Positions 3,837-18,247 of a stretch of 32,665 nucleotides of DNA are shown here, piece after piece. The DNA comes from Syntrophaceae bacterium (lineage in GTDB: Bacteria; Desulfobacterota; BSN033; UBA1163). Under the pieces are notes generated by a model. That model was not told the origin of the DNA. It did no database searches and saw only the letters and a list, made by a program, of their open reading frames with translations. Within the stretch, counting starts at the first letter, position 1, and every line of letters begins with the position of its first letter. The stretch covers positions 1 to 32,665 of the forward strand of contig JACAEX010000051.1 of NCBI GenBank assembly GCA_013388635.1. The letters are read 5' to 3'. The position numbers and the translations under genes were made by a program.

Positions 3837-4355
3837 TTACCTTTTCTCCTTAGACGGGGTCATCCTCTCCATCATCCGAAAGGCCATCTCTTTCTCGATC
3901 CTGGCCTGCTTGACCCGAATATCACAGATCTTCTCCCGGCAATCCATATAGACATCGAAGGCCTGAAGGGCCAGGTCATCGATTCTGGACTGAAATTTCA
4001 GCCACTCCTCAATGGCCGGGGCCTTAGCGATCTCATCCCTAAGCATCTCTCCGATGGCCCTCTTCAAGAGGAAAATGAATCCGACGGCCTTGGAAGGAGG
4101 AAAGTCCTGAACCGATCTGATCTTAAGGATCGAATCCAGAGAAGACTGGCATTTCTCATCCTGAATCCCTTCGCAGAGCTTTCCGAAGAGAATCTCTATC
4201 TCCCGGGAGATCGTCGAACCCACTGGGTTCGTGAATGGATCCTTGTCCTTTTTCATCAAGCTCGCCGTATCCGCAGGATAGGTCTCCAGGATGAGATCGA
4301 ACCATCTCTTCAAAATAGCCGCTTCGTTTTTTGAGAGAAGGTCTTTTAGCACCAT
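3837..4355 (-). CDS. RsbRD N-terminal-domain protein of the dsr operon
   Basis: 172-residue, largely alpha-helical soluble protein beginning MVLKDLLSKNEAAILKRWFDLILETYPADTA. This fits the RsbRD_N domain, with helices around ILKRWFDLILETYP, ISREIEILFGKLCEG and SKAVGFIFLLKRAIGEML. In stressosome RsbR proteins the domain acts as a sensor next to a STAS domain; here no STAS domain is present, so a stand-alone sensory or scaffolding role is inferred. The ATG is 1 nt from the stop of the DsrE-like gene, so translation is coupled. It sits between the second DsrMK pair and dsrMKJO. Domain assignment is moderate confidence; function unknown. Confidence 0.7.
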   Translation of the reverse strand: MVLKDLLSKNEAAILKRWFDLILETYPADTASLMKKDKDPFTNPVGSTISREIEILFGKLCEGIQDEKCQSSLDSILKIRSVQDFPPSKAVGFIFLLKRAIGEMLRDEIAKAPAIEEWLKFQSRIDDLALQAFDVYMDCREKICDIRVKQARIEKEMAFRMMERMTPSKEKR

Positions 4356-4356
4356 G

Positions 4357-4698
4357 TCAGAGGTTGACCACCTCGTGATGAAGAATCAAATCCAAAATCT
4401 CATCCATCGTCGCCGATCTGCCAACGGCCATCTTCCCGGTCAGCTCAAGCTCGCTGACACAGAGCTGCCCTGCCAGAAGTCGGACTCCCTTTCCTTCGAG
4501 GACCTTGAGATGAGGGACCGACGGAGAGCCTTCTGCCAATAGCCTCACCGCTGTATTCCAGAAGATGATAGCCAGCGGCCGATCCTCCCGTTCGAGAAGG
4601 GCTTTCAGCATGGACATCCAGATCTCGTACCCGAGGTCGTCATCTCCCCGGCCAATGCTCTCCGACCCCATCAGGAATACTTTTCCCTTTGTATTCAT
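4357..4698 (-). CDS. DsrE/YedF-like small sulfur-relay family protein
   Basis: 113 residues from MNTKGKVFLMGSESIGRGDDDLG; a start 7 codons upstream (ATG at 4719, just after a GAGGGGGA) is equally possible. The pattern of an N-terminal strand, GxGDxxLG, then RPLAIIFWNTAVRLLAEGSP, VLEGKGVRLLAGQLCVSEL and KMAVGRSATMDEILDLI matches the DsrE-fold C-terminal domain of YedF proteins. A single Cys (QLCVSEL) occupies the place of the DsrE-family active cysteine. DsrE-fold proteins carry or transfer sulfur. The location between a DsrK-like gene and an RsbRD gene suggests a sulfur-binding accessory to the second DsrMK pair (inference). Confidence 0.75.
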   Translation of the reverse strand: MNTKGKVFLMGSESIGRGDDDLGYEIWMSMLKALLEREDRPLAIIFWNTAVRLLAEGSPSVPHLKVLEGKGVRLLAGQLCVSELELTGKMAVGRSATMDEILDLILHHEVVNL

Positions 4699-4725
4699 GG
4701 CCTCCCCATCGCTATCCATTCCCCC

Positions 4726-6345
4726 TCAATGCCATTCCCAATCGATAAAAGGCTTCTTCATGGCGACCATGGCATTGGCCACCAGTTCGACCAGGCCTCC
4801 ATAGTAGATGCTATGTCTTTCCCACAAACCATTACTGGCAAGGATATCCCTTATGGCCCCTTTGCAGTTGGAACAGGGAGCGCAGACGTATTTCTTAATA
4901 CCTGGATCCAAAACATCGTTGAAGGCCTCCAGGATCTGTTTCAGCTTCATCCGGCTGGAGATGTTCTCTCTCCACTCCTTGAAATTCATCGACGACATGA
5001 TCGCAAACCCGCTTCCTCCGCCGCAACAATAGTTTTCAACCCCATGGGGTTCCATCTCTCTGAACTGGGGGCATATCTTTCTGAGGATGCGCCTTTGAGG
5101 TTCGACAATGCCCATCAATCTCACAAAATTGCAGGGGTCATGGAGCGTCACCGGAAAGTTGTTCTTTTGAGGATCGAGCTCCAATTTACCGCCGCAGACC
5201 AGTTCCTCCAGAAGGGGAAGAAAACTCTCTCTGGGAAAATTCATCTCGTCTAACAATATCCGATCCGCGATGACGATCAGTCCTTTATGGGCATGGCCAC
5301 ATTCTGCCATCACCATCTTTTTGACCTTCAGCTTTCGCGCCACTTCCACCTGTTTGAGGGAGATCCTGGCCAATTGGACATCGTCATACCATGTGCCATA
5401 GTTGGTGGCCTCGTACCCGTAGATTTCGCTCGAAAGCGTCCAGCTCAGACCCGCTGCCTCAAAGACGATGGCAAAGGCGACCGGGTTTTCGATCCAGGAC
5501 ATGAATTCGCCGGAGTTGTGGATCAGCAGGATGTCCGAGCCCTCCTTATCCACAGGGATCTTGATCCTCCTGCCCCATTTCTCCTCGATCTCATCCTCCA
5601 TGAATTCAACCATTCCCTGGAAGGCCTCTGGAGAAATCCCGGTGCTCGCGCCCACTCTTAGCTGTTGAACCGTGCCTGATTCATGGAGCTCCTTCGGAGC
5701 GATCCCCATCTCCTGGCTGAAGAGTTTTCTCAGTTCTCTACCGATCAGGCCATTATCACTTCCAAGGGGGCAGCGCTGGGCACATCGCCGACAGAGGCTA
5801 CACCGGTAAGCCAATTCAGCAAGTCTGGCAACGGTTGGCCAGTTCAGCTCGATATCGTCTCCGGTCAACTTAGAAAGGATCTTTCCCCTTTTCTTGATAT
5901 ATTTATTAATGATCCTCCGGAGGATCTCTGATCTGTAGGTAGGCCGGTAGATCTCCTGATTCCCGCTGGAGAGATAGACAGGGCAGGCATCGCTGCAGGT
6001 CTGGCACCGGACACAGCTTTCCAGGGATTGGATCAGAGGCTGCCAGAAAAGCCAGTTGTCGTTCGGTGAGAGCAATTTCTCGAGGCCCCGGAGAAAACGC
6101 TCCACCAATTTCTCCTCCTCTTCTTTGTTCCTCGGTTTGGGAAGGGATAGGGCTGAAACGCCGTCGAGGGAAGATTCATAACGCTTCTTCTGTTCCTCAG
6201 ACAGAGAGGGATATGGATCTTTCTTCTCCTCGCGAGCCAGAGGAGGAGGAAGCGGCATCAGGTCATCTGCCCTTATCGTAATGAGGGGTTCATCCGTGGG
6301 CAGACTGATATCCTGTAATCGAATTTTCTTCCTTTTGGCCTTCAT
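4726..6345 (-). CDS. DsrK paralogue (second HdrD-like iron-sulfur protein of the operon)
   Basis: 539 residues. The protein has a charged, proline-rich N-terminal extension of about 110 residues absent from DsrK proper. Two complete [4Fe-4S] motifs follow (CVRCQTCSDACPVY, CSLCRRCAQRCPLG), then a CCG region (DPCNFVRLMG, YCCGGGSGFA, CAPCSNCKGAI). The last motif is a normal CxxC, unlike the CxC seen in the dsrK at 1057-2691. It is clearly homologous along its length to DsrK (for example KVKKMVMAECGHAH versus GVKWILGGECGHMW). Its start codon overlaps the stop of the cytochrome b gene by 4 nt (ATGA), so the two make one membrane module. A heterodisulfide/trisulfide-type reductase reaction is inferred; the substrate is unknown. 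Confidence 0.88.
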   Translation of the reverse strand: MKAKRKKIRLQDISLPTDEPLITIRADDLMPLPPPLAREEKKDPYPSLSEEQKKRYESSLDGVSALSLPKPRNKEEEEKLVERFLRGLEKLLSPNDNWLFWQPLIQSLESCVRCQTCSDACPVYLSSGNQEIYRPTYRSEILRRIINKYIKKRGKILSKLTGDDIELNWPTVARLAELAYRCSLCRRCAQRCPLGSDNGLIGRELRKLFSQEMGIAPKELHESGTVQQLRVGASTGISPEAFQGMVEFMEDEIEEKWGRRIKIPVDKEGSDILLIHNSGEFMSWIENPVAFAIVFEAAGLSWTLSSEIYGYEATNYGTWYDDVQLARISLKQVEVARKLKVKKMVMAECGHAHKGLIVIADRILLDEMNFPRESFLPLLEELVCGGKLELDPQKNNFPVTLHDPCNFVRLMGIVEPQRRILRKICPQFREMEPHGVENYCCGGGSGFAIMSSMNFKEWRENISSRMKLKQILEAFNDVLDPGIKKYVCAPCSNCKGAIRDILASNGLWERHSIYYGGLVELVANAMVAMKKPFIDWEWH

Positions 6346-7220
6346 CGATTTGAATCCAGTATAGGAGGTTGTTGCATTTCAGAGGCAACCTCCCTCCATT
6401 GCTTTCCCGATTGAATGTGTGGAGCAGACCAGGTCACAGGTCGCTCCAGATGCTCCCTGACTCTCTTTTCGATCTCGCCTCCCTTTCGATTCGGTACATC
6501 GTCCCAGCGAAGATAGTGATAGTATCTGAAAAAGAGCTGATAGACATGGCTGAAGGGCAGGTAGATCAACCAGACCGAAGCGAAAAGGACATGAAGGGCT
6601 GGCGCCGGTGCCGGACGGAGTTTGTGCTCGAAATCTGCAAAGGTGACCTGCTCCCTCACATACTTCAGAAGAGACGGGATGCTCGATTTAAAATGGAGAT
6701 CGACTGCATAAACCCCTCCAATTAAGGTGAGGAGGAGAAACACCCACTTTACGTAGTGAACGGGAGGATAATGAACCTTTAGCTCCTCATCCCTCATTCG
6801 CATGATCAAAATGGCCATGCCTCCGATGAAGGTGAGGAGGGTGGAGAAGGTCCCCCAGACCCATCCGAAGATCGAGGCGGTTTCAATGTCTGCGACCACG
6901 GCCCGGATGAAGAGCCATGCGTGCCAGAGGATGAGCAGGTAGAGCCCCGTATGAAAGAGATAGAGGGGATACCAAAACCTCCTGTTGCGATGGTAAAATT
7001 CTCTCAGAAAGAGAAGGTCCAGAACCATGGACCAGAGCTTTTCGCCGAAGGTGATCTCTTTTTTCGTCCACCACTCGGTCGATTCATAAATCGAACTCCC
7101 TTTGTAAAGTTCCCAGTGCAGGTGAACGGGTGCATCGATGCACTTCTTCACCCGAAGCGCTGTGGTGAGAATAAAGAAGAGGATGCTTCCGTAAAAAATA
7201 AAGAGGATCAAACCACCCAT
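6342..7220 (-). CDS. NarI/DsrM-like cytochrome b membrane protein paired with the second DsrK
   Basis: 292 residues with about five hydrophobic segments, beginning MGGLILFIFYGSILFFIL. One histidine pair with the NarI spacing of 10 is present (LFHTGLYLLILWH). In the last helix the first His aligns with DsrM, but the second falls 15 residues later (LHVLFASVWLIYLPFSH), not 18, where Gln stands instead. Haem coordination on that side may therefore differ. The protein should take electrons to or from quinone and pass them to the adjacent DsrK paralogue. A GAGG precedes the ATG. It lies downstream of dsrC, separated by a 161-nt repeat-filled gap. TmcC/HmcE-type cytochrome b is an alternative family name. 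Confidence 0.85.
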   Translation of the reverse strand: MGGLILFIFYGSILFFILTTALRVKKCIDAPVHLHWELYKGSSIYESTEWWTKKEITFGEKLWSMVLDLLFLREFYHRNRRFWYPLYLFHTGLYLLILWHAWLFIRAVVADIETASIFGWVWGTFSTLLTFIGGMAILIMRMRDEELKVHYPPVHYVKWVFLLLTLIGGVYAVDLHFKSSIPSLLKYVREQVTFADFEHKLRPAPAPALHVLFASVWLIYLPFSHVYQLFFRYYHYLRWDDVPNRKGGEIEKRVREHLERPVTWSAPHIQSGKQWREVASEMQQPPILDSNR

Positions 7221-7381: not shown

Positions 7382-7699
7382 TTAGACGCAGCCCGTGGGT
7401 TTGGGTAGGCCCGCGACCTTACAGGCTCCCTTGGCCGGACCGCTCGGGAATAACTGGTAGATCTTCTTCAGATCATTCCCCGTCTGTTTACATAACATTC
7501 GGACCGGGGGAGCGATCCCGAACTTCAGGTAGTAATCCCTGAGATAATTGACCACCTTCCAGTGCTCTTCAGTCATTCCAGAGACATTCTCGGTTTTTGC
7601 GAGGTCCTCTGCCACCTCTTTGTTCCACTTGTCAGGCTCCTGAATGAAACCGTCCTCGTCGATCTCAATCTCAATCCCGCCAAGCATTGCCTTTGCCAT
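7382..7699 (-). CDS. dsrC: DsrC sulfur-carrier protein
   Basis: 105 residues ending PAKGACKVAGLPKPTGCV. The penultimate Cys104 and Cys93 are exactly the two redox cysteines of the DsrC swinging arm, so this is a catalytic DsrC rather than a TusE-like variant. DsrC receives the sulfur from DsrAB-bound sulfite as a trisulfide, which the DsrMK module then reduces. The start is set by an AGGAGGAGAAAAG directly upstream of the ATG. The gene lies 11 nt downstream of the YHS-like gene and upstream of the second DsrM/DsrK pair. Identity is near certain from length and C-terminus. Confidence 0.96.
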   Translation of the reverse strand: MAKAMLGGIEIEIDEDGFIQEPDKWNKEVAEDLAKTENVSGMTEEHWKVVNYLRDYYLKFGIAPPVRMLCKQTGNDLKKIYQLFPSGPAKGACKVAGLPKPTGCV

Positions 7700-7710: not shown

Positions 7711-7908
7711 CTAAGCTTTGATAAATTTTTCAGGTGATTCATCAAACTGCTTCTTACAGGCCTTGCAACAGAAATAGTACGTCTTATCCCCGACCGTGCT
7801 GGTGGCCCTCGGCTTCGCAGCCACCGCTCCATAAAGGACTCCCACCTTGCTTATCTCCATCTCCCTGCCACATACCGGACATTTCACTTCCATGCGTTCT
7901 TCAGCCAT
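7711..7908 (-). CDS. YHS/TRASH-like small cysteine protein
   Basis: 65 residues with two cysteine knuckles: KCPVCGREM near the N-terminus and YYFCCKACKKQFDESPEKF near the C-terminus. The second matches the YHS-type signature (Y-F-C-C-x-x-C...F...P-x-x-F). Such domains bind metal (Zn, Cu or Fe). The middle segment is short and alanine/lysine rich. It overlaps the 3' end of dsrN by 8 nt and is followed 11 nt later by dsrC, so it is translated as part of the core dsr unit. A role in metal or sulfur handling near DsrC is plausible but unproven. Confidence 0.75.
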   Translation of the reverse strand: MAEERMEVKCPVCGREMEISKVGVLYGAVAAKPRATSTVGDKTYYFCCKACKKQFDESPEKFIKA

Positions 7909-9322
7909 ATTTCGCCTCCTTTAAAGGTGTCTTCCCCTGCCTTCGTGCGAGGGAAACGAAAGCCTCTGCCCAACAGGGCGTCCCTGAGGCGTGTAAGTGC
8001 ATATAGCTCGCAAACAAATTCTTATAGAAGATTCCATCCCGCTTGCCGTCGATCCCATGACCCCGCTTGATTTCGTAGGCGAACCTGATCCCATTCTTTA
8101 CGGAGAGTCTGGAATGATGGAATTCATGGCCTCGGATGGTCAATCCTATCGGGAGAAGGGGGTTTTCATCAGTGACTTCGGCAAGGACGTAGCCGTGCCC
8201 TTCAGGCCTTTGAGAGATCTCGACCTCGGCGGGAATGACCCCGACCATTTCATGGGATCGACCTTGCCAGTGGATCTTTCGGCATAGGTACATCAGCCCC
8301 GCACATTCCGCATAGACCGGAAGACCAGCTTCAATCGATTCGGCTATATCTTTTCGCAACAGTCGATTTTCCTCTAACTGCTTAACGAAGAACTCAGGGA
8401 ATCCGCCTCCAATATAAAGCCCATCCACCGGCGGCAATCGGTCTTGCAGGGAATTGATAAAGATGAGTTCGGCATTCTCCTGTCTCAGGGCCTCAAGGTT
8501 TTCTGGATAATAGAAGTTGAAGACCTGGTCATGCATCACCCCGAGCCTGACTTCGGGAGCTCTCTCTCGGCTCTCCTCTAAGGCGCGAGGGGAGGGGCGA
8601 GGGGGACTAAATCCCTGAGCGATCTTCAATATCTGATCCAGATCGAGGTAGGGTTTCAACTTATTCCCGATCCGTTCGACGAGCGACTCCGCCTCGCTCG
8701 ATTCCTTCGACGGGATGAGCCCTAAATGTCTTTCAGCGATTTGAAGATCAGGATCACGGGGGATGCCGCCGAGAACAGGGATCGCGCAATGCTCCTCCAC
8801 AGCCTCTCTCAACTTCTTCTCATGTCGGCTGCCTGAAACGTAATTGAGGATCACCCCCACAATCTTGATGCCGGTCTCAAAAAGTTGGTACCCCTTCACC
8901 ATTGCTGCAATGCTACCTGTCATCCTGCTTGTGTTCACCACCAGGAGAATCGGAATGTTCAACAGGCGGCTTATCTCCGCGGTCGTCTGTTGACTGTCCA
9001 ACCCATCGTAAAGTCCCATCGCCCCTTCCACAATGGCCAGGTCTGCCTCTTCGCAAGCCCGCGCAAAAGTCTGAATTAATTTCTCTTTTGGAATTAGGAA
9101 GAGATCGAGATTGCGGCAACCTCTTCCTGCCGCAATCGTGAGCCACGAGGGGTCGATATAGTCGGGGCCTTTCTTAAAGGGTTGGATCGAAAGGCCCCGG
9201 TTCGTCAATAACTTGCACAAGCCGACCGTAACCACAGTCTTGCCCGAGTGACCCTGCGGTGAGGAGACGAGAAAGCAACCCAAGGTCCGATCACCACCGG
9301 TGAAGCGATCACCTCTTCCCAT
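7901..9322 (-). CDS. dsrN: DsrN, CobB/CbiA-like glutamine-dependent amidase (sirohaem amidation)
   Basis: 473 residues. The N-terminal ATP-binding domain has a P-loop GHSGKTVVTVGLC, then KKGPDYIDPSW and VEGAMGLYDGLD, as in cobyrinate a,c-diamide synthases. The C-terminal glutamine amidotransferase domain has the Cys in YAECAGLMYL and the histidines in HEFHHS. In dsr operons this protein is DsrN, which amidates sirohaem to the amide form used by DsrAB. It begins 5 nt after dsrD, fixing that role over cobalamin synthesis, although a dual role cannot be excluded. The linker between the two domains (about 240-258, FSPPRPSPRALEESRERAP) is low-complexity and encoded by a C/G-rich repeat. Confidence 0.9.
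   Translation of the reverse strand: MGRGDRFTGGDRTLGCFLVSSPQGHSGKTVVTVGLCKLLTNRGLSIQPFKKGPDYIDPSWLTIAAGRGCRNLDLFLIPKEKLIQTFARACEEADLAIVEGAMGLYDGLDSQQTTAEISRLLNIPILLVVNTSRMTGSIAAMVKGYQLFETGIKIVGVILNYVSGSRHEKKLREAVEEHCAIPVLGGIPRDPDLQIAERHLGLIPSKESSEAESLVERIGNKLKPYLDLDQILKIAQGFSPPRPSPRALEESRERAPEVRLGVMHDQVFNFYYPENLEALRQENAELIFINSLQDRLPPVDGLYIGGGFPEFFVKQLEENRLLRKDIAESIEAGLPVYAECAGLMYLCRKIHWQGRSHEMVGVIPAEVEISQRPEGHGYVLAEVTDENPLLPIGLTIRGHEFHHSRLSVKNGIRFAYEIKRGHGIDGKRDGIFYKNLFASYMHLHASGTPCWAEAFVSLARRQGKTPLKEAKYG
8560..8612. repeat. C/G-rich repeat inside the DsrN interdomain linker
   Basis: On the minus strand the segment reads as runs of CCCCTCGCCCCTCCCCTCGCGCC followed by GAGAGCC/GAGAGAG, unlike the flanking coding DNA. 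It is in frame and encodes the Pro/Arg/Glu-rich linker between the ATPase and amidotransferase domains. The CCCCTC-rich style resembles the repeat at 1064-1090. It may be an inserted dispersed repeat tolerated in a flexible linker. Confidence 0.45.
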
Positions 9323-9593: not shown

Positions 9594-10658
9594 TTACCAT
9601 TTGAACTGGGTGGTGGTCCTCCAGGTTTCCCTCGCATAAGTAAAGTCGTCAATGTGCTGCTCCGCAAAAGGTATCCCCGTCAGTTGGAAGAACTTCTCCC
9701 AGCCTATCCTCTCGATCCACTCCCCCATTCTCTCGAATTTACGAGCATTCTTCGCATAGACCTCGACGATCTTCTTGACCGTGTTCACCACCTCAGGCCA
9801 ACGGGGAGGGTTGTTCGGAAGGTAGGGGACGACCAGACGGGAAAACATCGGAGGTTTTCTCGCATTGGATACCTTACCTCCGGCATAGATGGCTACGCCG
9901 TCACCTTCAGGGTCTGCAAGAGGCATGGCGGGGCAGACCGTGTAGCAGTTTCCGCAGTACATGCAGAGGTCTTCCCGGATGACCACGCTCTTGACTTCCT
10001 TGTCAGGATGGCGCCGAATGGCCCCCGTGGGGCAGGATCCGATGGTCGTCGGGATCTCACAGATCGCTCCCACCTTTTCGTGATCGATCTTTGGGACCTT
10101 GGTATGAACTCCGACCACAGCGAGATCCGAACAATGGATCGCACCACACATGTTGATACAGCAGGCCAACGATACCCTCAGTTTGGCCGGGAGCTTCATA
10201 CTGGTAAAGTAGCCATAGAGCTCGTCCATGAGTGATTTGACGACCGATGAACTATCCGTGGCTGCGCTGTGGCAATGGGCCCAGCCCTGGGTATGAACGA
10301 TGTTCGAAATAGCGTTTCCAGTCCCGCCGACCGGAAGGCCGAGCTTCTTCACCTCTTCGATGATCGGCCTGATATTCTTCTTATGGGGGGTCATGAATTC
10401 AATGTTATACCGGCTGGTAAACCGAAGGTATCCGTCACAATATTTATCAGCAATATCACAGATGTCCCGGATGAAGTCGACGCTGACCAGACGGGGCGAT
10501 CCCACCCTCACCGTAAACACCTCGTCTCCTGTCTCGGAGACATGGCGCATCACACCTGGCTTGAGGATCTCATGGTATTTCCAGTTGCCATAATTTTTTT
10601 TGATGACCTCAGGGAGCATCTCCTGAAAATTCGGAGGACCGATATCTGATCTTCCCAT
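9594..10658 (-). CDS. dsrB: Dissimilatory sulfite reductase beta subunit
   Basis: 354 residues. The sirohaem/[4Fe-4S] region shows the DsrB pattern CCINMCGAIHCSD. The inserted ferredoxin domain has CPTGAIRRH and LCMYCGNCYTVCPAMPL. The N-terminus (SDIGPPNFQEMLPEVIKKNYGNWKYHE) and the C-terminus (RETWRTTTQFKW) are family-typical. With DsrA it forms the alpha2beta2 enzyme that reduces sulfite and loads sulfur on DsrC in the cytoplasm. A strong AGGAGGTTATT lies before the ATG. Length is normal. The 98-nt dsrA-dsrB gap contains a GC-rich hairpin, so dsrB may have some post-transcriptional tuning. Confidence 0.97.
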   Translation of the reverse strand: MGRSDIGPPNFQEMLPEVIKKNYGNWKYHEILKPGVMRHVSETGDEVFTVRVGSPRLVSVDFIRDICDIADKYCDGYLRFTSRYNIEFMTPHKKNIRPIIEEVKKLGLPVGGTGNAISNIVHTQGWAHCHSAATDSSSVVKSLMDELYGYFTSMKLPAKLRVSLACCINMCGAIHCSDLAVVGVHTKVPKIDHEKVGAICEIPTTIGSCPTGAIRRHPDKEVKSVVIREDLCMYCGNCYTVCPAMPLADPEGDGVAIYAGGKVSNARKPPMFSRLVVPYLPNNPPRWPEVVNTVKKIVEVYAKNARKFERMGEWIERIGWEKFFQLTGIPFAEQHIDDFTYARETWRTTTQFKW

Positions 10659-10756: not shown

Positions 10757-11920
10757 TTAAAAGAAAACGTAAGGATTTGCTCTCGGCGCCTTGATCATCT
10801 GCGGCGTCGGCTTCAGGCCAACCGCTTTTAAAAAATTTCTCATCCCCAACCTTTCGATCAGTTCGCCGACCCTCTCTCTCGTCCTTCCATTTTCATCCCA
10901 CCAGTCCCATATCTTTCGAACGAGCTCCTTGATCTCGGTATAGGGAGGTTCGACTTTCATAAAGGGAACGATGACCGACGAGAGCATGGCGCCTTTCAGA
11001 ATCGGCGCCTTTCCACCGATCAGCAGCGTCGCGCCTTTGTCCAACCCGGGTCTGATCGCTTTGGTCATTTTGTTAATACAATGCATACATCGGACACAGT
11101 CCTGAGGAACCACTCTGAGCTTCTTGGTCTTTTCATCCCATTTGAGTGCATTGGTTGGACACTTATCAACAACCAGCCCCTTCACGTCAAAGCCGGCCTT
11201 TACATACTCTTTGACCGCCTTCTGATCGATCTTCAGGCTATCCCTCCAGGTGCCGATGATCGTCAGGTCAGCTCTCGCTATAGCGGCCACACAATCATTA
11301 GGACATCCTGAGATCTTGATCTTAAATTTATAGGGCCACCGCGGCCGATGGATCTCATCCTGGAACTCCATCGTCAGGTTATGAACCAGATCGAGGGTGT
11401 TGATATTGGTCCACTCGCATCGCGCCGGTCCCACACAGGCTGTGAGTGTCCTCAGAGCCGAACCCGATCCTCCTAAGTCAAATCCCACTTCGGTCAACGC
11501 ATCGAAGCAGGGCTGAAGGTTTGCTGTGGTTGTCCCGAGCAGAATGATGTCGCCCGTTGAGCCATGAAAATTGGTCAGGCTGCTACCATACCGCTCCCAG
11601 ACGTCGCAAAGTTGCCTCAATTTCTTGGTTGAGTAAAACCAACCTGCAGGATGATTGACTCGAAGCGTGTGGAACGATTCCACATTTGGGAAGAGGTGCG
11701 GCACATCACTATACCTTCCGATCACTCCCCCGCCATACCCGGTGACGCCTACAATTCCCCCATGCTTCCAATGAGTTACTTTGTCTTTAAATGATAGTTC
11801 CTGGACGCCCAAAAGATCCTTTGCCGCAGCATTCTTCTTGGCTGCTCGTTTTATCTCTTTAACATAACTCGGCCACGGCCCCTTTTCCAGTTGGTCCACC
11901 AACGGGGTCTCCTCTTTCAT
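10757..11920 (-). CDS. dsrA: Dissimilatory sulfite reductase alpha subunit
   Basis: 387 residues from [16 protein letters not shown]. An ATG two codons earlier (11926) exists, but AGGAGG lies only 2 nt before it and 8 nt before this one, so the inner start is preferred. Sirohaem/[4Fe-4S] motifs are CVGPARC (C-x5-C) and CPNDC (C-x3-C). The ferredoxin domain has CPTNALKW and [15 protein letters not shown]. This is the catalytic sulfite reductase subunit. It is the first gene of the dsr array, with about 80 nt between its start and a sigma-54 promoter at 12000-12015. The two-component genes at 12144-15516 diverge from it, a layout that suggests local control. Confidence 0.97.
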
Positions 11921-11999
11921 CCGCATTCCCTCCTTTAACTAATGAATTATAACTTTTTATACATCTCAGACGAAAAGAAATCAAGGATTAAATTTGTTG

Positions 12000-12015
12000 A
12001 GCAAAAACTGTGCCA
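12000..12015 (-). promoter_or_regulatory. Sigma-54 (-24/-12) promoter of the dsr operon
   Basis: On the minus strand the sequence is TGGCAC (12015-12010), five bases AGTTT (12009-12005), then TTGCT (12004-12000). This matches the sigma-54 consensus TGGCAC-N5-TTGCW at every defined position with the obligatory spacing. It points toward dsrA, giving a leader of roughly 65-70 nt. Sigma-54 promoters need an NtrC-type activator, and one is encoded on the other side of the same intergenic region. Confidence 0.85.
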
Positions 12016-12089
12016 CCAGATGATGGTCCCGTTAGCTCTTGAAAACTATAATCAATTTAATTTAACATACTGAAGGAACATACAAATTC

Positions 12090-12116
12090 AAATGCAAAAA
12101 ATATCTGGCAGTGCTA
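12090..12116 (-). promoter_or_regulatory. Candidate activator-binding site (UAS) for the dsr sigma-54 promoter
   Basis: Read on the minus strand from 12116, the segments are TAGCACT, GCCAGAT, ATTTTTT and GCATTT. It aligns without gaps to 15514-15540 at 22 of 27 positions. Its end is 74 nt upstream of the -24 element, a usual enhancer distance for NtrC-family activators. The TGC...GCA ends give partial dyad symmetry, as expected for a dimeric Fis-type HTH. It also lies 28 nt before the kinase start, so it may mediate autoregulation. Confidence 0.7.
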
Positions 12117-12143
12117 TATCTTGTTGGCACAGGGGTCGAAACG

Positions 12144-14099
12144 ATGAAGGCAGGTAGGAATCTCAAACTGACCAAGAAGTTGATGCTCGGGATCGGGATC
12201 ATCCTTTTCATTACCTTCGGTACGATCTCCCTCTTTTTCTATTATTATGTGAAGCACCTCTATTTAAAAGAGACCTACAGGCAGACAGAGCTCCTCTTCT
12301 CTTATATCAATGCCACTGCAGAATATGTCAAGGATGAATTGAGACCAAAGATGTTCCATGTCTTGCCAAAGGACGAATTCATTCAGGAGGCGATGTCCAC
12401 CACCTTTGTCACAAGGGGTATTACAAAGAGATTCATCCAAAGATTCCCGGAATATAATTACAGAAGGGTGGCGGTCGACCCGAGAAACCCGTTGAATATG
12501 GCAAATGAGATGGAAAAAGAGTTCATCAATGGCTTCTCTAAAAATCCAAAAGATACCCATGAATGGAAAGGGTTGATTAAGAGGGATGGAAAGAGATACT
12601 TTGTCCATCAAAAACCGGTGATCATGGAGGCCCAGTGCCTCATCTGTCACGGGGATCCATCCTATGCACCGAGATCCCTGGTCAAGATTTATGGAAAGGA
12701 CCATGGTTTTTACAGAAAGATCGGCAATGTGGCCGGGGTCGAATCGGTGGCCATACCCGTGGACAACACGTTTTATCAGATCACCCGATTGGCCTTCTCG
12801 ATATTCCTCTTAGGTCTCTCAGGAATGGCTGCGACATTCCTCATCCTGAACTACTTCCATTATGTGGTACTGGTCAAGCCACTCAGGAAGGTCAGTTCTT
12901 TCTTTAGGTCGATTGTCAGCGGCGAAAGAGGTCTGGATATGAAGCTTGAGGTGAAGGGAGATGACGAGATCTCCGAGGTCGTAGGATCCTTCAATCAGAT
13001 GATCTCCCACCTCAAGAGGTCGCGGGATGAATTGATATCCTCGGAGATGAAGTACCGTCGAATCTTTGAGGGTTCCAAAGATGCCATCCTCCTGATCGAC
13101 TGTACAGGTCCGATCAGGGATGTAAACCATTCAGGCGTGGAGTTATGGGGTTACAGCAGCAAGGAGGAGTTCATCGAGAATGTGTCCTTAAGCAATCTCT
13201 TTGTGAAGGAAGAGGTGTTGAACGATTTTCTTGCCCGGATCGGAGAGGACGAATTTGTAAAGGACTATGAGATCGTCTTGAGGAGAAAGGACGGAGGGGA
13301 GAGGAATGGACTGATGACAGCGACTTTGAGGAGAGATGGGGAGGACCAGATCTGCGGCTACGAGTGTATTGTCAAGGACATCACGGAGAGAAAGAAGATG
13401 GAGGAGAGAATCAGAGAGGCGGATAAGCTTGCCTCGATTGGACAATTGGCAGCAGGGGTTGCCCATGAGATCAACAATCCCTTGAGCGTCATCCTCGGGT
13501 TTACAAGGTTGCTCACGAAGAAATCCTCTTTCGACAGGCAGACCAAGGAGGATCTGGAGATCATCCAGAGCAATGCCAGGCTGTGCAAAAAGATTGTCGA
13601 GGACCTCCTCAATTTTTCAAGGCAGAGAAGGCCACAATACACAGAGGCAGATCTCAACGGGACGATCGAATCGATCGTCTCCGTGGTGGAAGCCCAGTTC
13701 AATCATGGCGGCATCACCATGGTAAGGGACTATGACCCTTCTATCCCGGCCGTGACAATGGATGTGGATAAGATGAAACAGGTCTTCATGAATCTTCTGA
13801 TGAACGCCTGTCAGGCAATGAATTCGGGTGGTTCCATCCACATCGCCACCCATTACGATGCGGCAAGGCAGGGGGTTTTGACCGTCTTTGCCGATACCGG
13901 ATGTGGAATCCCGAAGAATATCCAGCACAGGGTATTCGACCCCTTCTTCACCACGAAGGAACCAGGGCAGGGGACCGGCCTTGGGCTCCCCGTATGCTAT
14001 GGAATCGTCAAAGAACATCATGGTGAGATTTCTTTTGAGAGTGAGGAAGGCAAGGGAGCGACGTTCAGGGTATGGCTCCCGTTGAACAGTATGGGGTGA
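12144..14099 (+). CDS. Membrane sensor histidine kinase with haem-c (Tll0287/DUF3365-like) sensor domain
   Basis: 651 residues from MKAGRNLKLTKKLMLGIG, with AGGGG 8 nt upstream of the ATG. Order: membrane segment (~10-35); periplasmic Tll0287/DUF3365-like domain with a CLICH haem-attachment motif at about 165-169; second membrane segment (~215-240); HAMP (~240-300); PAS (~305-410); HisKA with the phospho-acceptor in GVAHEINNP (His ~441); HATPase with N-box MNLLMNACQA, DTGCGIP and GQGTGLGLPV. A covalently bound haem suggests sensing of redox state or a small ligand such as sulfide, NO or CO (inference). It diverges from dsrA and lies 10 nt before its response regulator. Its promoter is not obvious. 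Confidence 0.93.
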   Translation: MKAGRNLKLTKKLMLGIGIILFITFGTISLFFYYYVKHLYLKETYRQTELLFSYINATAEYVKDELRPKMFHVLPKDEFIQEAMSTTFVTRGITKRFIQRFPEYNYRRVAVDPRNPLNMANEMEKEFINGFSKNPKDTHEWKGLIKRDGKRYFVHQKPVIMEAQCLICHGDPSYAPRSLVKIYGKDHGFYRKIGNVAGVESVAIPVDNTFYQITRLAFSIFLLGLSGMAATFLILNYFHYVVLVKPLRKVSSFFRSIVSGERGLDMKLEVKGDDEISEVVGSFNQMISHLKRSRDELISSEMKYRRIFEGSKDAILLIDCTGPIRDVNHSGVELWGYSSKEEFIENVSLSNLFVKEEVLNDFLARIGEDEFVKDYEIVLRRKDGGERNGLMTATLRRDGEDQICGYECIVKDITERKKMEERIREADKLASIGQLAAGVAHEINNPLSVILGFTRLLTKKSSFDRQTKEDLEIIQSNARLCKKIVEDLLNFSRQRRPQYTEADLNGTIESIVSVVEAQFNHGGITMVRDYDPSIPAVTMDVDKMKQVFMNLLMNACQAMNSGGSIHIATHYDAARQGVLTVFADTGCGIPKNIQHRVFDPFFTTKEPGQGTGLGLPVCYGIVKEHHGEISFESEEGKGATFRVWLPLNSMG

Positions 14100-14109
14100 G
14101 GAGAGGCAG

Positions 14110-15516
14110 ATGAAGGAATCTATTCTTGTTGTCGATGATGTGCCGGATATGCTTAAGTTCCTCGAAAGGCTCATCCAGGAGGAACTTCACGTCGATGTGG
14201 TCGCACTGGACGATGCGGAAAAGGCGATGGAGAAGGTATTGAAGGATCCGCCCAGCATCGTCCTTGCCGATATCCGGATGCCAAAGATGAACGGGGTCGA
14301 ATTGCTGAGACGGATCAAAGAGATGGACCATTCCCCTCTGGTGATCATGATGACTGCCTACGGGAGTATCGAGGATGCCGTCGAAAGCCTTAAGCTGGGG
14401 GCTTACGATTACATCACGAAGCCTTTTGATGAGGAGAGGCTACTGCATACGCTTAAAAAGGCCCTTGAGCATCATGACCTCGTTAAGAAGAACATCGATC
14501 TTGAGAAGAGGGTGAAGGAGAAGGAGGCGTTAAATGGCTTCATAGGAGAATCGCTCCCCATCCGAAGGCTGGTAGAGACCATCAAAATTGTGGCGAAAAC
14601 GGATTTGACGGTCCTGATCACAGGTGAGACCGGAACGGGCAAAGATCTTGCTGCGAGGATGATCCATGCCCTGAGCCACCGATCGAATAAACCCTTCATC
14701 CCTGTAAACTGCCCGACCATCCCAGAAACGATTTTGGAGAGCGAGCTTTTCGGTTATAAGAAGGGCGCCTTCACAGGAGCAGCTCAGGATAAGATGGGGC
14801 TCTTCGGGACTGCTGATGGCGGAACTCTTCTGCTCGATGAGATCGGGGACCTGCCGACGATGCTTCAGGCAAAGCTGTTGAGGGTCTTAGAAGAGAAGGA
14901 GATCAAACCTCTCGGTGATACGAAAACCAACAAGATCGATGTGAGGGTCATCGCCTCAACCAATCAGGATCTTAAGGAGAAGATCGCCTCCCATCAATTC
15001 AGAGAGGATCTCTATCACCGGTTGAATGTCGTTTCGATATCCACACCCTCCCTCAAAGAGATCGCGGAGGATATCCCTTTGATTGCGAACCATTTTCTTT
15101 CCTTCTATTGCTCAGAGTTTAATATCGCTCAAAAGAGATTTTCAGAAGATACTTTGAGAATGTTCATTTCAAGAAGATGGACCGGAAATGTCAGGGAGCT
15201 CCAGAACGAGATCAAAAGGGCTGTGATATTCTCAAAGGGTGAAATGATTACCCCTGAGGATTTTCAAAATGAGACGAGATTGCCATATCCCGAGGAGAAT
15301 GCCGATTCTCTATTGAAACTTACCTATAAAGAGGCAAGGAAGAACCTTCTTGAAAAATTCAATGTTCAATATATCAGAGACTTACTGGACAAATATAGTG
15401 GTAACGTCTCTCTGGCGGCCAGGATGGCAGGCTTAGAAAGGCAGTCCCTTCAGCACCTGATCAAGAGGTATGGCATCCACCCTGAGGAGTTTAGAAAGAG
15501 TGCAAACAAAATGTAG
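14110..15516 (+). CDS. NtrC-family sigma-54-dependent response regulator
   Basis: 468 residues. The receiver domain has acidic VVDD near the N-terminus, phospho-acceptor Asp54 in VLADIRMPKMNG and Lys in YITKPF. The AAA+ domain has Walker A GETGTGKD (~172-179), GAFTGA (219-224), which contacts sigma-54, and Walker B LLLDEIGDL. The C-terminal Fis-type helix-turn-helix (~433-458) reads NVSLAARMAGLERQSLQHLI. It is encoded 10 nt after the kinase, so the two form a two-component pair. Two sigma-54 promoters with a shared upstream site flank the pair, making this the predicted activator of both dsrA and the split-Soret gene. The second predicted site begins at this gene's stop codon. Confidence 0.95.
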   Translation: MKESILVVDDVPDMLKFLERLIQEELHVDVVALDDAEKAMEKVLKDPPSIVLADIRMPKMNGVELLRRIKEMDHSPLVIMMTAYGSIEDAVESLKLGAYDYITKPFDEERLLHTLKKALEHHDLVKKNIDLEKRVKEKEALNGFIGESLPIRRLVETIKIVAKTDLTVLITGETGTGKDLAARMIHALSHRSNKPFIPVNCPTIPETILESELFGYKKGAFTGAAQDKMGLFGTADGGTLLLDEIGDLPTMLQAKLLRVLEEKEIKPLGDTKTNKIDVRVIASTNQDLKEKIASHQFREDLYHRLNVVSISTPSLKEIAEDIPLIANHFLSFYCSEFNIAQKRFSEDTLRMFISRRWTGNVRELQNEIKRAVIFSKGEMITPEDFQNETRLPYPEENADSLLKLTYKEARKNLLEKFNVQYIRDLLDKYSGNVSLAARMAGLERQSLQHLIKRYGIHPEEFRKSANKM

Positions 15517-15540
15517 CACTGCAAGGCTTTTTTTGCATCT
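15514..15540 (+). promoter_or_regulatory. Candidate activator-binding site (UAS) for the split-Soret sigma-54 promoter
   Basis: The segments are TAGCACT (15514-15520), GCAAGGC (15521-15527), TTTTTTT (15528-15534) and GCATCT (15535-15540). It has 22/27 identity, without gaps, to the site upstream of dsrA (12116-12090, other strand). It ends 71 nt before the -24 element at 15612, against 74 nt at dsrA, and has the same orientation relative to its promoter. TGCAA...TTGCA ends give dyad symmetry. It starts on the stop codon of the regulator gene. Confidence 0.7.
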
Positions 15541-15611
15541 CCAGATACTCAATCAACCAGTTATTAATCAAGAATATCTTTATTTTCAGATGGTTCCGCC
15601 ACCTGGGGTTA

Positions 15612-15627
15612 TGGCATAGCTATTGCT
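15612..15627 (+). promoter_or_regulatory. Sigma-54 (-24/-12) promoter upstream of the split-Soret cytochrome gene
   Basis: TGGCAT (15612-15617), AGCTA (15618-15622), TTGCT (15623-15627): GG and GC doublets at the required spacing, one mismatch to TGGCAC. It lies 90 nt before the ATG at 15717 in a 200-nt non-coding gap and points toward the cytochrome. Together with the matching element before dsrA it indicates joint sigma-54 control. Confidence 0.8.
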
Positions 15628-15716: not shown

Positions 15717-16523
15717 ATGAAGCTATCGAGAAGGGGTCTTTTAAAAGAAGGAGGTGTATTTTTGCTCGGGGCCACAGCAGCAGGGTTATCCTTTTCTCGA
15801 TCGGGAGAATTGATGTCAGCAGTCGCGGCAAATCAGGAGACAATGGAGGTTCCTTGGCCTTATAAGAAATTGAATCCAGAGGTTGTAGCGGAGAAGGCCT
15901 ATCATGGGTACTATAAGGGAGCCTGTTGCTATGGCGTTTTCGATAGCATTGTTGGAGAGCTGCGAAGGGAGATAGGAGCTCCTTATACGACGATACCCAC
16001 TTCGATGATGATCTTTGGAGAGGGCGGGGTAGCTGGTATTGCATCCGTTTGTGGAGCCCTCAATGGCGCAGCTGCAGCAATTTTTCTTATCACAGGCAGT
16101 ATGGAGAAGGAGAAGAGAGAGCTTGCCTTTTCCATTACAAAGGAACTCTTCAACTGGTATGAACAGGTTCCGCTGCCAGATTACAGGCCCTCCAAGCCAA
16201 AGTTTGAGATTGTCAAATCGATTTCTCGTTCCAATCTCTGCCATGCTTCTGTCTCAAACTGGTGCAAGGTAGCCAAGGTGAAAGCGTTTTCAAAGGAGCG
16301 ATCTGAGAGGTGTGGCTGGCTTACCGGATCTGTGGCTAAATATACGGTTGAGCTTCTGAATGCAAACGCCGAAGGGAACTTTAAAGCCATCCATAAGCTT
16401 TCAAAAGAGGTTCAATCGTGCAGGAGCTGTCATGACAAAGGGGGTGCCATTGAAAACACCCGGGGCATGATGGATTGTGGCGGATGCCACTTTCGAGCGC
16501 CCTCCAAGCACCCGAAAATATAA
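15717..16523 (+). CDS. Split-Soret cytochrome c-like protein (C_GCAxxG_C_C family), Tat-exported dihaem
   Basis: 268 residues from MKLSRRGLLKEGG; AAAGGAGGA 6 nt upstream sets the start. SRRGLLK followed by a hydrophobic stretch (VFLLGATAAGLSF) is a Tat signal. The body has the C_GCAxxG_C_C pattern (GACCYGVFDSIV, SVCGALNGAAAA, LCHASVSNWC, RCGWLTGSVA), and the C-terminus has two haem motifs, CRSCH and CGGCH. This combination describes split-Soret cytochrome c of Desulfovibrio, a periplasmic dihaem protein with an iron-sulfur centre whose physiological partner is unsettled. Control by the same sigma-54 system as the dsr operon would tie it to sulfite respiration (inference). Confidence 0.82.
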   Translation: MKLSRRGLLKEGGVFLLGATAAGLSFSRSGELMSAVAANQETMEVPWPYKKLNPEVVAEKAYHGYYKGACCYGVFDSIVGELRREIGAPYTTIPTSMMIFGEGGVAGIASVCGALNGAAAAIFLITGSMEKEKRELAFSITKELFNWYEQVPLPDYRPSKPKFEIVKSISRSNLCHASVSNWCKVAKVKAFSKERSERCGWLTGSVAKYTVELLNANAEGNFKAIHKLSKEVQSCRSCHDKGGAIENTRGMMDCGGCHFRAPSKHPKI

Positions 16524-16714: not shown

Positions 16715-18247
16715 ATGGCCGAAAAGAAAGGTATCGATTGGTCAACGCTTTGGAAGAAAGATGACTGGGTTTCGGTATGGATCGGATTTCTCATTCTGAT
16801 CATCTTCATGGCAGGAGCCACCTTCAAACTTCCGGGATGGAAATGGCTGACCGATGGGGCATTTGTTGAAAAGATCCCGGGTTACAGCAAGAAGGTCGAT
16901 GGCCTTGTAAAGGATGCAGAGGCAAAGGGAGAGGAGGGATTAAAGGCGGGTGCAATCGAACTCAAGACAGCCCTCGACGCAAAGGATCGGAAGGCGATCG
17001 GAGAGGCTGCAGGAAAGTTCGAGAAGGCTGTAAAGGAAGTAAAGGATAAGGATCTGAATAAGAAGGCAGAGAAGCTCGCCAAAGATATCAAGGGCGATGC
17101 AACGAATACATTCGGGAAGGTCCTCTCAGGCCCGAATCTGTTGAGGATGCTCTATCTGCTGATCGGTTTCTGGATCTTCGCATTGATCGGCATCCTCATT
17201 ATGGGAATGCCGGCAGGCAAATTCATTACAGGTTTCCCATTTGTATTCGTCCTCTCTGTCATCGCAGCGATCATCGGTGGAAACTCAACGATCTCCTATT
17301 ATGGTCTTGAGACCGTATTCTGGGCCTTGATCTTGGGCCTCCTGGTCAGCAACACGGTCGGCGTGCCTGGATGGGTCAAAGAAGCGGTGAAGACCGAGTA
17401 CTTTATCAAGATCGGCCTCGTGCTTCTCGGCGCAGAGATTCTCTTCACAACCATTGTAAAAGTGGGGGCGTATGGGATGGTTCAATCGATTATCGTCATC
17501 GGGCTTGTATTCTATTTCTGCTTCTGGGTGGCTAAAAAACTTGGCCTCGATGATGAGTTTGCCTCGATTCTCGGTACTGCTGTCTCGATCTGCGGAGTCT
17601 CGGCTGCGATCGCTGCTGGCGGTGCGGTCAAGGGTGATCCGAAAAAAGTGAGCCATACCATCTCTCTGGTCCTCCTCTGTGCGATCCCCATGTTGATCTT
17701 CCAGCCGGTGATCGCAAAGGCAGTGGGGATGTTACCAGCAGTGGCAGGGGCCTGGATAGGCGGGACGATCGATACAACCGGTGCCGTGGTAGCAGCAGGT
17801 GCGATTGCTGGCCCTGAGGCGATGTCTGTGGCCGTTGTGGTCAAGATGGCACAGAACGTATTGATCGGAGTGGCTGCATTCCTTCTGGCCATATGGTTCG
17901 TCTTCAAGGGGAGGGAGGCAGGCCAAAAACCGAGCGCCGCAGAGATATGGTTCCGGTTTCCGAAGTTTGTGGTCGGTTTCGTGATTGCCTCGATCGTCTT
18001 CTCTTTCTTCCTGACAGAGGCGTATGCGAAGGGAGTCACGGGAGTTACAGGACCGATCAGGGCGTGGTGGTTCAACCTTGCTTTCATCTGCATTGGTCTG
18101 GATACGAGATTCAAAGAGCTGGTGGCCATGGGAGGTGGAAGGCCAGCAGCTGCCTTCCTGATCGCTCAGGGTTTCAACATCATCCTGACGCTGGTTTTGG
18201 CCTACCTGATTTTCGGCGGGATTCTATTCCCAGTTCCAAAGTTTTAA
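16715..18247 (+). CDS. PSE/YeiH-family (UPF0324) membrane transporter with a helical insertion
   Basis: 510 residues. After one hydrophobic helix (~20-42) comes a hydrophilic, Lys/Glu/Ala-rich, helix-forming stretch (~55-135, such as AKGEEGLKAGAIELKTALDAK and KKAEKLAKDIKGD), then about nine or ten membrane helices. Conserved PSE features are LVLLGAEILF, ASILGTAVSICGVSAAIAAG, GAWIGGTIDTTGAVVAAG and FICIGLDTRF. Ordinary members lack the insertion and are about 330-350 residues long. The family is called putative sulfate exporter; in a sulfite reducer it might move sulfate, sulfite or sulfide. Start from AGAGGGGGG before the ATG. It follows the split-Soret gene by 191 nt and precedes a terminator. 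Confidence 0.88.
   Translation: MAEKKGIDWSTLWKKDDWVSVWIGFLILIIFMAGATFKLPGWKWLTDGAFVEKIPGYSKKVDGLVKDAEAKGEEGLKAGAIELKTALDAKDRKAIGEAAGKFEKAVKEVKDKDLNKKAEKLAKDIKGDATNTFGKVLSGPNLLRMLYLLIGFWIFALIGILIMGMPAGKFITGFPFVFVLSVIAAIIGGNSTISYYGLETVFWALILGLLVSNTVGVPGWVKEAVKTEYFIKIGLVLLGAEILFTTIVKVGAYGMVQSIIVIGLVFYFCFWVAKKLGLDDEFASILGTAVSICGVSAAIAAGGAVKGDPKKVSHTISLVLLCAIPMLIFQPVIAKAVGMLPAVAGAWIGGTIDTTGAVVAAGAIAGPEAMSVAVVVKMAQNVLIGVAAFLLAIWFVFKGREAGQKPSAAEIWFRFPKFVVGFVIASIVFSFFLTEAYAKGVTGVTGPIRAWWFNLAFICIGLDTRFKELVAMGGGRPAAAFLIAQGFNIILTLVLAYLIFGGILFPVPKF

Follow-up and report, generated by a model that had tools for sequence, protein, structure and literature searches.

A tandem-dyad site shared by a dsrAB promoter and a split-Soret-like cytochrome/YeiH-family transporter promoter, a putative upstream activating site for the adjacent NtrC-type regulator in a Syntrophaceae bacterium

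The window, a stretch of 32,665 nucleotides from a Syntrophaceae bacterium of the Desulfobacterota (contig JACAEX010000051.1), houses a kinase-regulator gene pair flanked by two promoters that face outward from it. The first gene of the pair (12144-14099, plus strand) encodes the cognate sensor histidine kinase, which comprises a periplasmic Tll0287-like (sCache_heme) domain (PF11845, E=2e-32) and HAMP, PAS, HisKA and HATPase domains; an ATG start is favoured over a GTG at 12111. The kinase bears the heme-c motif CLICH at residue 165, and CXXCH is found in all 11 of the aligned homologues. The second gene (14110-15516, plus) encodes an NtrC-type response regulator with a receiver domain (PF00072, E=2.6e-30), a sigma-54 AAA+ domain (PF00158, E=2.3e-69) whose GAFTGA loop is intact in the translation (...FGYKKGAFTGAAQDK...), and a Fis-type helix-turn-helix that scores slightly under the 22-bit cut-off (PF02954, E=9e-4, 19.3 bits). 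This last region, GNVSLAAKKAGIERQSLQHLMRKYGI, is almost invariant among the regulator orthologues that carry the site described below. Matches to this regulator number at least 27 in the same genome.

To the left, on the minus strand, the first gene of the target operon is dsrA (10757-11926; TIGR02064, 579 bits), followed by dsrB (9594-10658; TIGR02066, 526 bits), a gene for a cobB/dsrN-like amidase (7901-9322), dsrC (7382-7699) and, again on the same strand, DsrM/DsrK-like genes. DsrAB reduces sulfite and serves as the hallmark of dissimilatory sulfite and sulfate reduction. The cobB/dsrN-like gene and dsrC possibly lie in the same transcription unit as dsrAB. The dsr cluster also contains an ORF with an RsbRD_N domain, a 120-aa ORF for which Pfam gave no match and, between dsrC and dsrMK, a second DsrM-like gene and a second DsrK-like gene (for these additional genes, window 3837-4719 and 6342-7220, minus). 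To the right, the first gene of the operon (15717-16523, plus) encodes a split-Soret-cytochrome-c-like C_GCAxxG_C_C protein, described here as split-Soret-like only, since its NF047622 score of 212 bits falls under the 400-bit equivalog cut-off. The second (16715-18247, plus) encodes a YeiH/PSE-family (UPF0324, PF03601) transporter, which passes the PF03601 cut-off (172 bits against 24.5) but fails that of TIGR00698 (93 bits against 232.6). Its product is thus placed in the same broad family as YeiH, and is predicted to be a likely sulfite exporter.

Both promoters have GG/GC -24/-12 elements with the correct spacing, TGGCACAGTTTTTGC for dsrAB (12001-12015, minus) and TGGCATAGCTATTGC for the cytochrome/YeiH operon (15612-15626, plus), both being conserved in other genomes. 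A preliminary description of this DNA had reported that 27-mers upstream of the two, on minus 12116-12090 and on plus 15514-15540, share 22 of 27 positions in an ungapped alignment, at 74 and 71 nt from the respective -24 elements; re-alignment bore out the match, and with the -24/-12 elements as placed here the distances hold as well. About 0.1% of first-order Markov resamplings give a best 27-nt match between the promoter regions as high as 22/27. The shared block in fact runs 14 nt further upstream, giving 38 nt with 31 identities, where the maximum in 2000 Markov resamplings of both promoter regions was 26. The TGC...GCA ends noted earlier are present, but in place of a single 27-nt dyad there is a tandem pair: the core of both 38-nt sites reads GTGC-N12-GCAC-TGC-N12-GCA, in which two TGC-N12-GCA dyads follow one another head to tail, their centres separated by 19 bp. 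The earlier account therefore stands as to the 27-nt match, and had overlooked the first dyad, GTGC-N12-GCAC, and the overlap with a stop codon. The 38-mer lies 77 nt from the -24/-12 element on the dsrAB side (GTGCCAACAAGATATAGCACTGCCAGATATTTTTTGCA, 12093-12130, minus), and 74 nt from it on the cytochrome/YeiH side (GTGCAAACAAAATGTAGCACTGCAAGGCTTTTTTTGCA, 15500-15537, plus). The plus-strand copy straddles the regulator stop codon (TAG, 15514-15516), while the minus-strand copy lies upstream of the kinase ATG. Weak sigma-70-like hexamers are also present upstream of the kinase (12039-12068, plus), with the minus-strand site between them and the ATG.

A search of the whole genome (3,418,377 bases in 106 contigs; a metagenome-assembled genome, or MAG, 95% complete) with a 37-position pattern allowing up to 3 mismatches returned these two sites and no others, and the reversed control pattern returned none. 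The claim that the site occurs only at these two promoters is thus upheld, and instead of many random genomic copies there are two, both at sigma-54 promoters. Together, the resampling and the genome-wide count rule out chance similarity. The predicted two-promoter regulon stands on this count; its suggested extension to sat, apr or qmo found no support, as no further site within 3 mismatches occurs at those genes in this genome.

A third conserved element, YTTTRTTTTCA, occurs between site and promoter on the right (15575-15588, plus), and its TTTTCA core on the left (12040-12045, minus). About a dozen promoters (the window and loci L033, L096, L043, L089, L090, L092, L040 and L046), from both of the spacing classes described below, have it 23-25 nt ahead of the -24. 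It is AT-rich and may be a bend site for IHF/HU or the site of a second factor. Four HU/IHF-family genes are present in the genome, and according to PMC3897727 IHF is required at the orp operons of D. vulgaris, which depend on sigma-54.

The RpoN domains PF04552 and PF04963 gave no match in this MAG. This is probably an assembly gap, since the domains are present in 15 of the 16 other family members and in all six Nitrospirota searched, the MAG is 95% complete, and its many NtrC-type regulator matches would make little sense without RpoN.

Phylogenetic footprinting links the site with this regulator. Synteny between genomes of the same phylum and named Desulfobacteraceae contigs underlies the placing of that phylum as Desulfobacterota. 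Within the phylum, the pattern search found the site in three of 395 sampled genomes, two of which (the present one and G007) carry two copies each. In G007, which belongs to another genus of the same family, both sites (dsrA copy on L033), both promoters and the gene order are retained, and the regulator is 76% identical. The cytochrome gene of G007 is cut down to its last ~37 codons (L033 5157-5270, plus), with the promoter and the YeiH-family gene intact. In G006, from a third genus, the site and a -24/-12 element lie upstream of dsrAB-cobB-dsrC; the contig (L096) begins 38 nt before the dsrA site, and neither the kinase nor a close regulator orthologue was found in the assembly. When the dsrA upstream regions of the three genera are aligned, the main conserved blocks are the site and the -24/-12 element. 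dsrA itself occurs in four of 17 family genomes, three of which have the site and a -24/-12 element upstream of it. The fourth, G014, has no site, no kinase and no close regulator orthologue. Immediately upstream of dsrA in this genome, in the same direction and with neither kinase nor site, lies an ORF (L104 1200-1517, minus) that matches nothing of the split-Soret-like cytochrome but the heme-bearing C-terminal portion.

The closest relatives of the regulator outside the family are found in MAGs of the Nitrospirota (Thermodesulfovibrionales), at 61-69% identity; the nearest Desulfobacteraceae protein is 51% identical. Between the same two groups, family and Nitrospirota, DsrA is 57-63% identical, and the better conservation of the regulator suggests that a kinase-regulator-transporter module moved between phyla. 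The pattern search found the site in 12 of 396 Nitrospirota genomes, with no match to the reversed control in the 791 genomes of both phyla. All pattern matches in these 791 genomes lie at the regulator gene or at dsrA, bar one: the match in G328 (L093) is away from any regulator and has no -24/-12 element, and was set aside as probably a remnant or a chance match. Among the 16 Nitrospirota orthologues at least 61% identical, drawn from the 396 genomes, all have the site at the regulator 3' end, in the same place as the plus-strand copy of the window, although in four of them it is degenerate (L120, L126, L128 and L130). Each site lies across or just beside the stop codon, and a -24/-12 element stands 73-100 nt beyond it; the loci examined then have a YeiH-family gene, preceded in some by a gene for a rhodanese-domain protein. 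Part of the first dyad encodes the last residues of the regulator, SANK-stop, so that coding constraint adds to conservation at the 3' end; this constraint is inapplicable to the dsrA copies, which are non-coding and have the same first dyad, and the idea that the site is kept merely as code was rejected.

All 13 Nitrospirota genomes that have the system and were checked also possess dsrA, but elsewhere in the genome, and within ~1.5 kb of it there is neither a site nor a TGGCA-type -24/-12 element. From this, control of dsrAB is predicted to be specific to the Desulfobacterota family studied here. The YeiH-family transporter gene would be the most widely shared target, and dsrAB a lineage-specific addition. 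Distances from site to promoter fall into two clusters, 73-77 and 95-100 nt, with a single one of 85; the clusters differ by about two helical turns. A helical period of 10.5 bp was not the best fit (R=0.58, as against 0.71 at 11.5), and since the loci are related, phasing is suggestive only.

The best explanation of these results is that both sites are very probably upstream activating sites of the regulator encoded at 14110-15516, which would activate both sigma-54 promoters. The assignment, which agrees with that of the preliminary description and is here backed by footprinting, draws on the two-copy uniqueness of the site, its spacing from the promoters and its co-inheritance with the regulator across phyla. 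In the proposed mechanism, the heme-c sensor kinase would phosphorylate the regulator, two dimers of which would bind the two adjacent dyads; the bound dimers would then build an AAA+ ring, loop over ~75 bp and open the sigma-54 promoters in both directions, an arrangement to which a bend protein such as IHF/HU at the YTTTRTTTTCA element would be well suited. The left promoter would drive dsrAB, and perhaps also the downstream cobB-dsrC-dsrMK-like genes; the right promoter, the split-Soret-type cytochrome and the YeiH-family transporter.

As to the signal, our best guess is sulfite or a kindred reactive compound of sulfur or nitrogen (NO/nitrite), acting through the periplasmic c-heme Cache domain. 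The guess follows from the targets, one of which consumes sulfite, the other being from a family that confers sulfite resistance; sulfite or a related sulfur species is placed slightly ahead of NO/nitrite. A sulfur oxyanion is favoured also by the finding that regulators 47-52% identical have the tandem-dyad core before TauE/SafE genes. It is then tempting, though tentative and a little short of an even chance, to suggest that a sulfur-oxyanion-responsive, heme-sensing sigma-54 two-component system which normally controls a YeiH-family sulfite exporter has captured dsrAB in this family, so that the terminal reductase of sulfate respiration became inducible. If true, the system would be an activator dedicated to dsrAB and tied to the export of sulfite.

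A signal of NO, nitrite or redox stress, as for NrfSR, is compatible with the sites being activating sites of this regulator, and is itself a real possibility, if somewhat under an even chance; on such a reading dsrAB would be raised because nitrite inhibits DsrAB or competes for it. Kinase-linked Tll0287/sCache_heme domains look like NO sensors in the single case tested (PMC12889525), and the Desulfovibrio sigma-54 system NrfS-NrfR answers nitrite (PMC5701242). The targets, however, point to sulfite handling, namely dsrAB and a member of the YeiH family, which confers sulfite resistance in Salmonella (PMC12880088), and the regulon as found includes no nitrite or NO detoxification gene.

The minus-strand site may have an additional role, compatible with activation, as an operator that, once occupied, represses the kinase-regulator operon, although such negative autoregulation is on balance doubtful. 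This site sits between the weak sigma-70-like promoter and the kinase ATG, at 14-51 nt from the latter, and its position is similar in G007; against this, a sigma-70-like match of this quality is to be expected by chance (one found, 0.8 expected).

It is quite unlikely that the sites belong to another enhancer-binding protein, an NtrC-type paralogue of the neighbouring regulator. The number of regulator matches in the genome provides many candidates, and a single motif can serve more than one enhancer-binding protein, as it does for DVU0539 and DVU0946, while NrfR binds LurR sites (PMC3333781, PMC6456213). The dsrA site of G006, in an assembly where kinase and close orthologue were not found, likewise counts against assignment to the neighbour. 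But the site travels with the neighbouring regulator in two phyla, being at the 3' end in all 16 Nitrospirota orthologues; paralogues at 42-51% identity mostly show no more than chance matches there, though one or two may be exceptions; and G014, the dsrA genome that lacks a close orthologue, also lacks the site. That the two copies are a recombination-duplicated repeat without regulatory role, the regulator 3' end having been copied upstream of the kinase, is highly improbable, for although the copies face outward around the gene pair and are similar over 38 nt, the similarity ends at the dyad ends, the distance to the -24/-12 elements is near-constant, and both copies are preserved in G007 while the surrounding spacer has diverged.

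Activation by the neighbouring regulator would be a mechanism of known kind; as far as found, the dsrAB target and the cross-phylum footprint are new. The sigma-54 regulons of D. vulgaris Hildenborough governed by DVU0539/DVU0946, LurR and NrfR (PMC4641369, PMC3333781, PMC6456213) likewise have a two-component NtrC-type activator beside its target and a palindromic activating site upstream of the promoter; they are small, covering one to four operons, and some include transporters of the PSE family, as here, or of the TSUP family. They differ from the present system in that dsrAB is not among their targets: it is in none of the 36 sigma-54 regulons described for D. vulgaris (PMC4641369), and no dsr- word appears in PMC3333781 or PMC6456213. 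Three of the five D. vulgaris motif groups are of the form TGT-N9/11/12-ACA, as against the tandem TGC-N12-GCA here. HcpR of sulfate reducers also regulates sulfate-reduction genes, being predicted for sat and apsAB, but it is of the CRP/FNR family and its authors remark on the absence of DsrAB from the regulon (PMC545781). In Salmonella sulfite stress, a dedicated regulator, YeiE, likewise serves the adjacent gene for a YeiH-family membrane protein; according to PMC12880088 this regulator is sulfite-binding and activates genes of sulfite reduction as well. It is, however, a one-component LysR-type protein, whereas here the proposed activator is a two-component sigma-54 regulator and the reductase the dissimilatory DsrAB. 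The sCache_heme (Tll0287/DUF3365) kinases share with the present kinase an extracytoplasmic CXXCH domain and a HAMP-linked signalling module; the domains tested are from Pseudomonas, and no sulfur-respiration-linked member is named in the available text of PMC12889525. No named transcriptional activator of dsrAB, sigma-54 regulators included, was found in the open-licence papers searched. The locus thus offers a concrete candidate activator, sensor, site and promoter for dsrAB, in a regulon of two gene sets small enough for complete testing. The motif is defined well enough for searching Nitrospirota and Desulfobacterota genomes with it, and heme-Cache sensor kinases would gain sulfur-metabolism targets from which a signal might be deduced.

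In Desulfobacteraceae, the tandem TGC-N12-GCA core also accompanies more distant regulators, of 47-52% identity, with one mismatch (L049 11532, plus; L047 6736, minus; L050 5156/5192), and these cores, together with -24/-12 elements, precede genes for TauE/SafE 'sulfite exporters'. In L050, one tandem core also faces a molybdopterin oxidoreductase gene. Finally, L043 contains at 13548 (plus) a second, GTGC/GCAC-rich near-match, GTGCAAAAAAGATATTGCACTGCCTGTAATTATATTTTTGCATC, which has an enlarged second dyad and lies before a 542-aa ORF (13793-15421).
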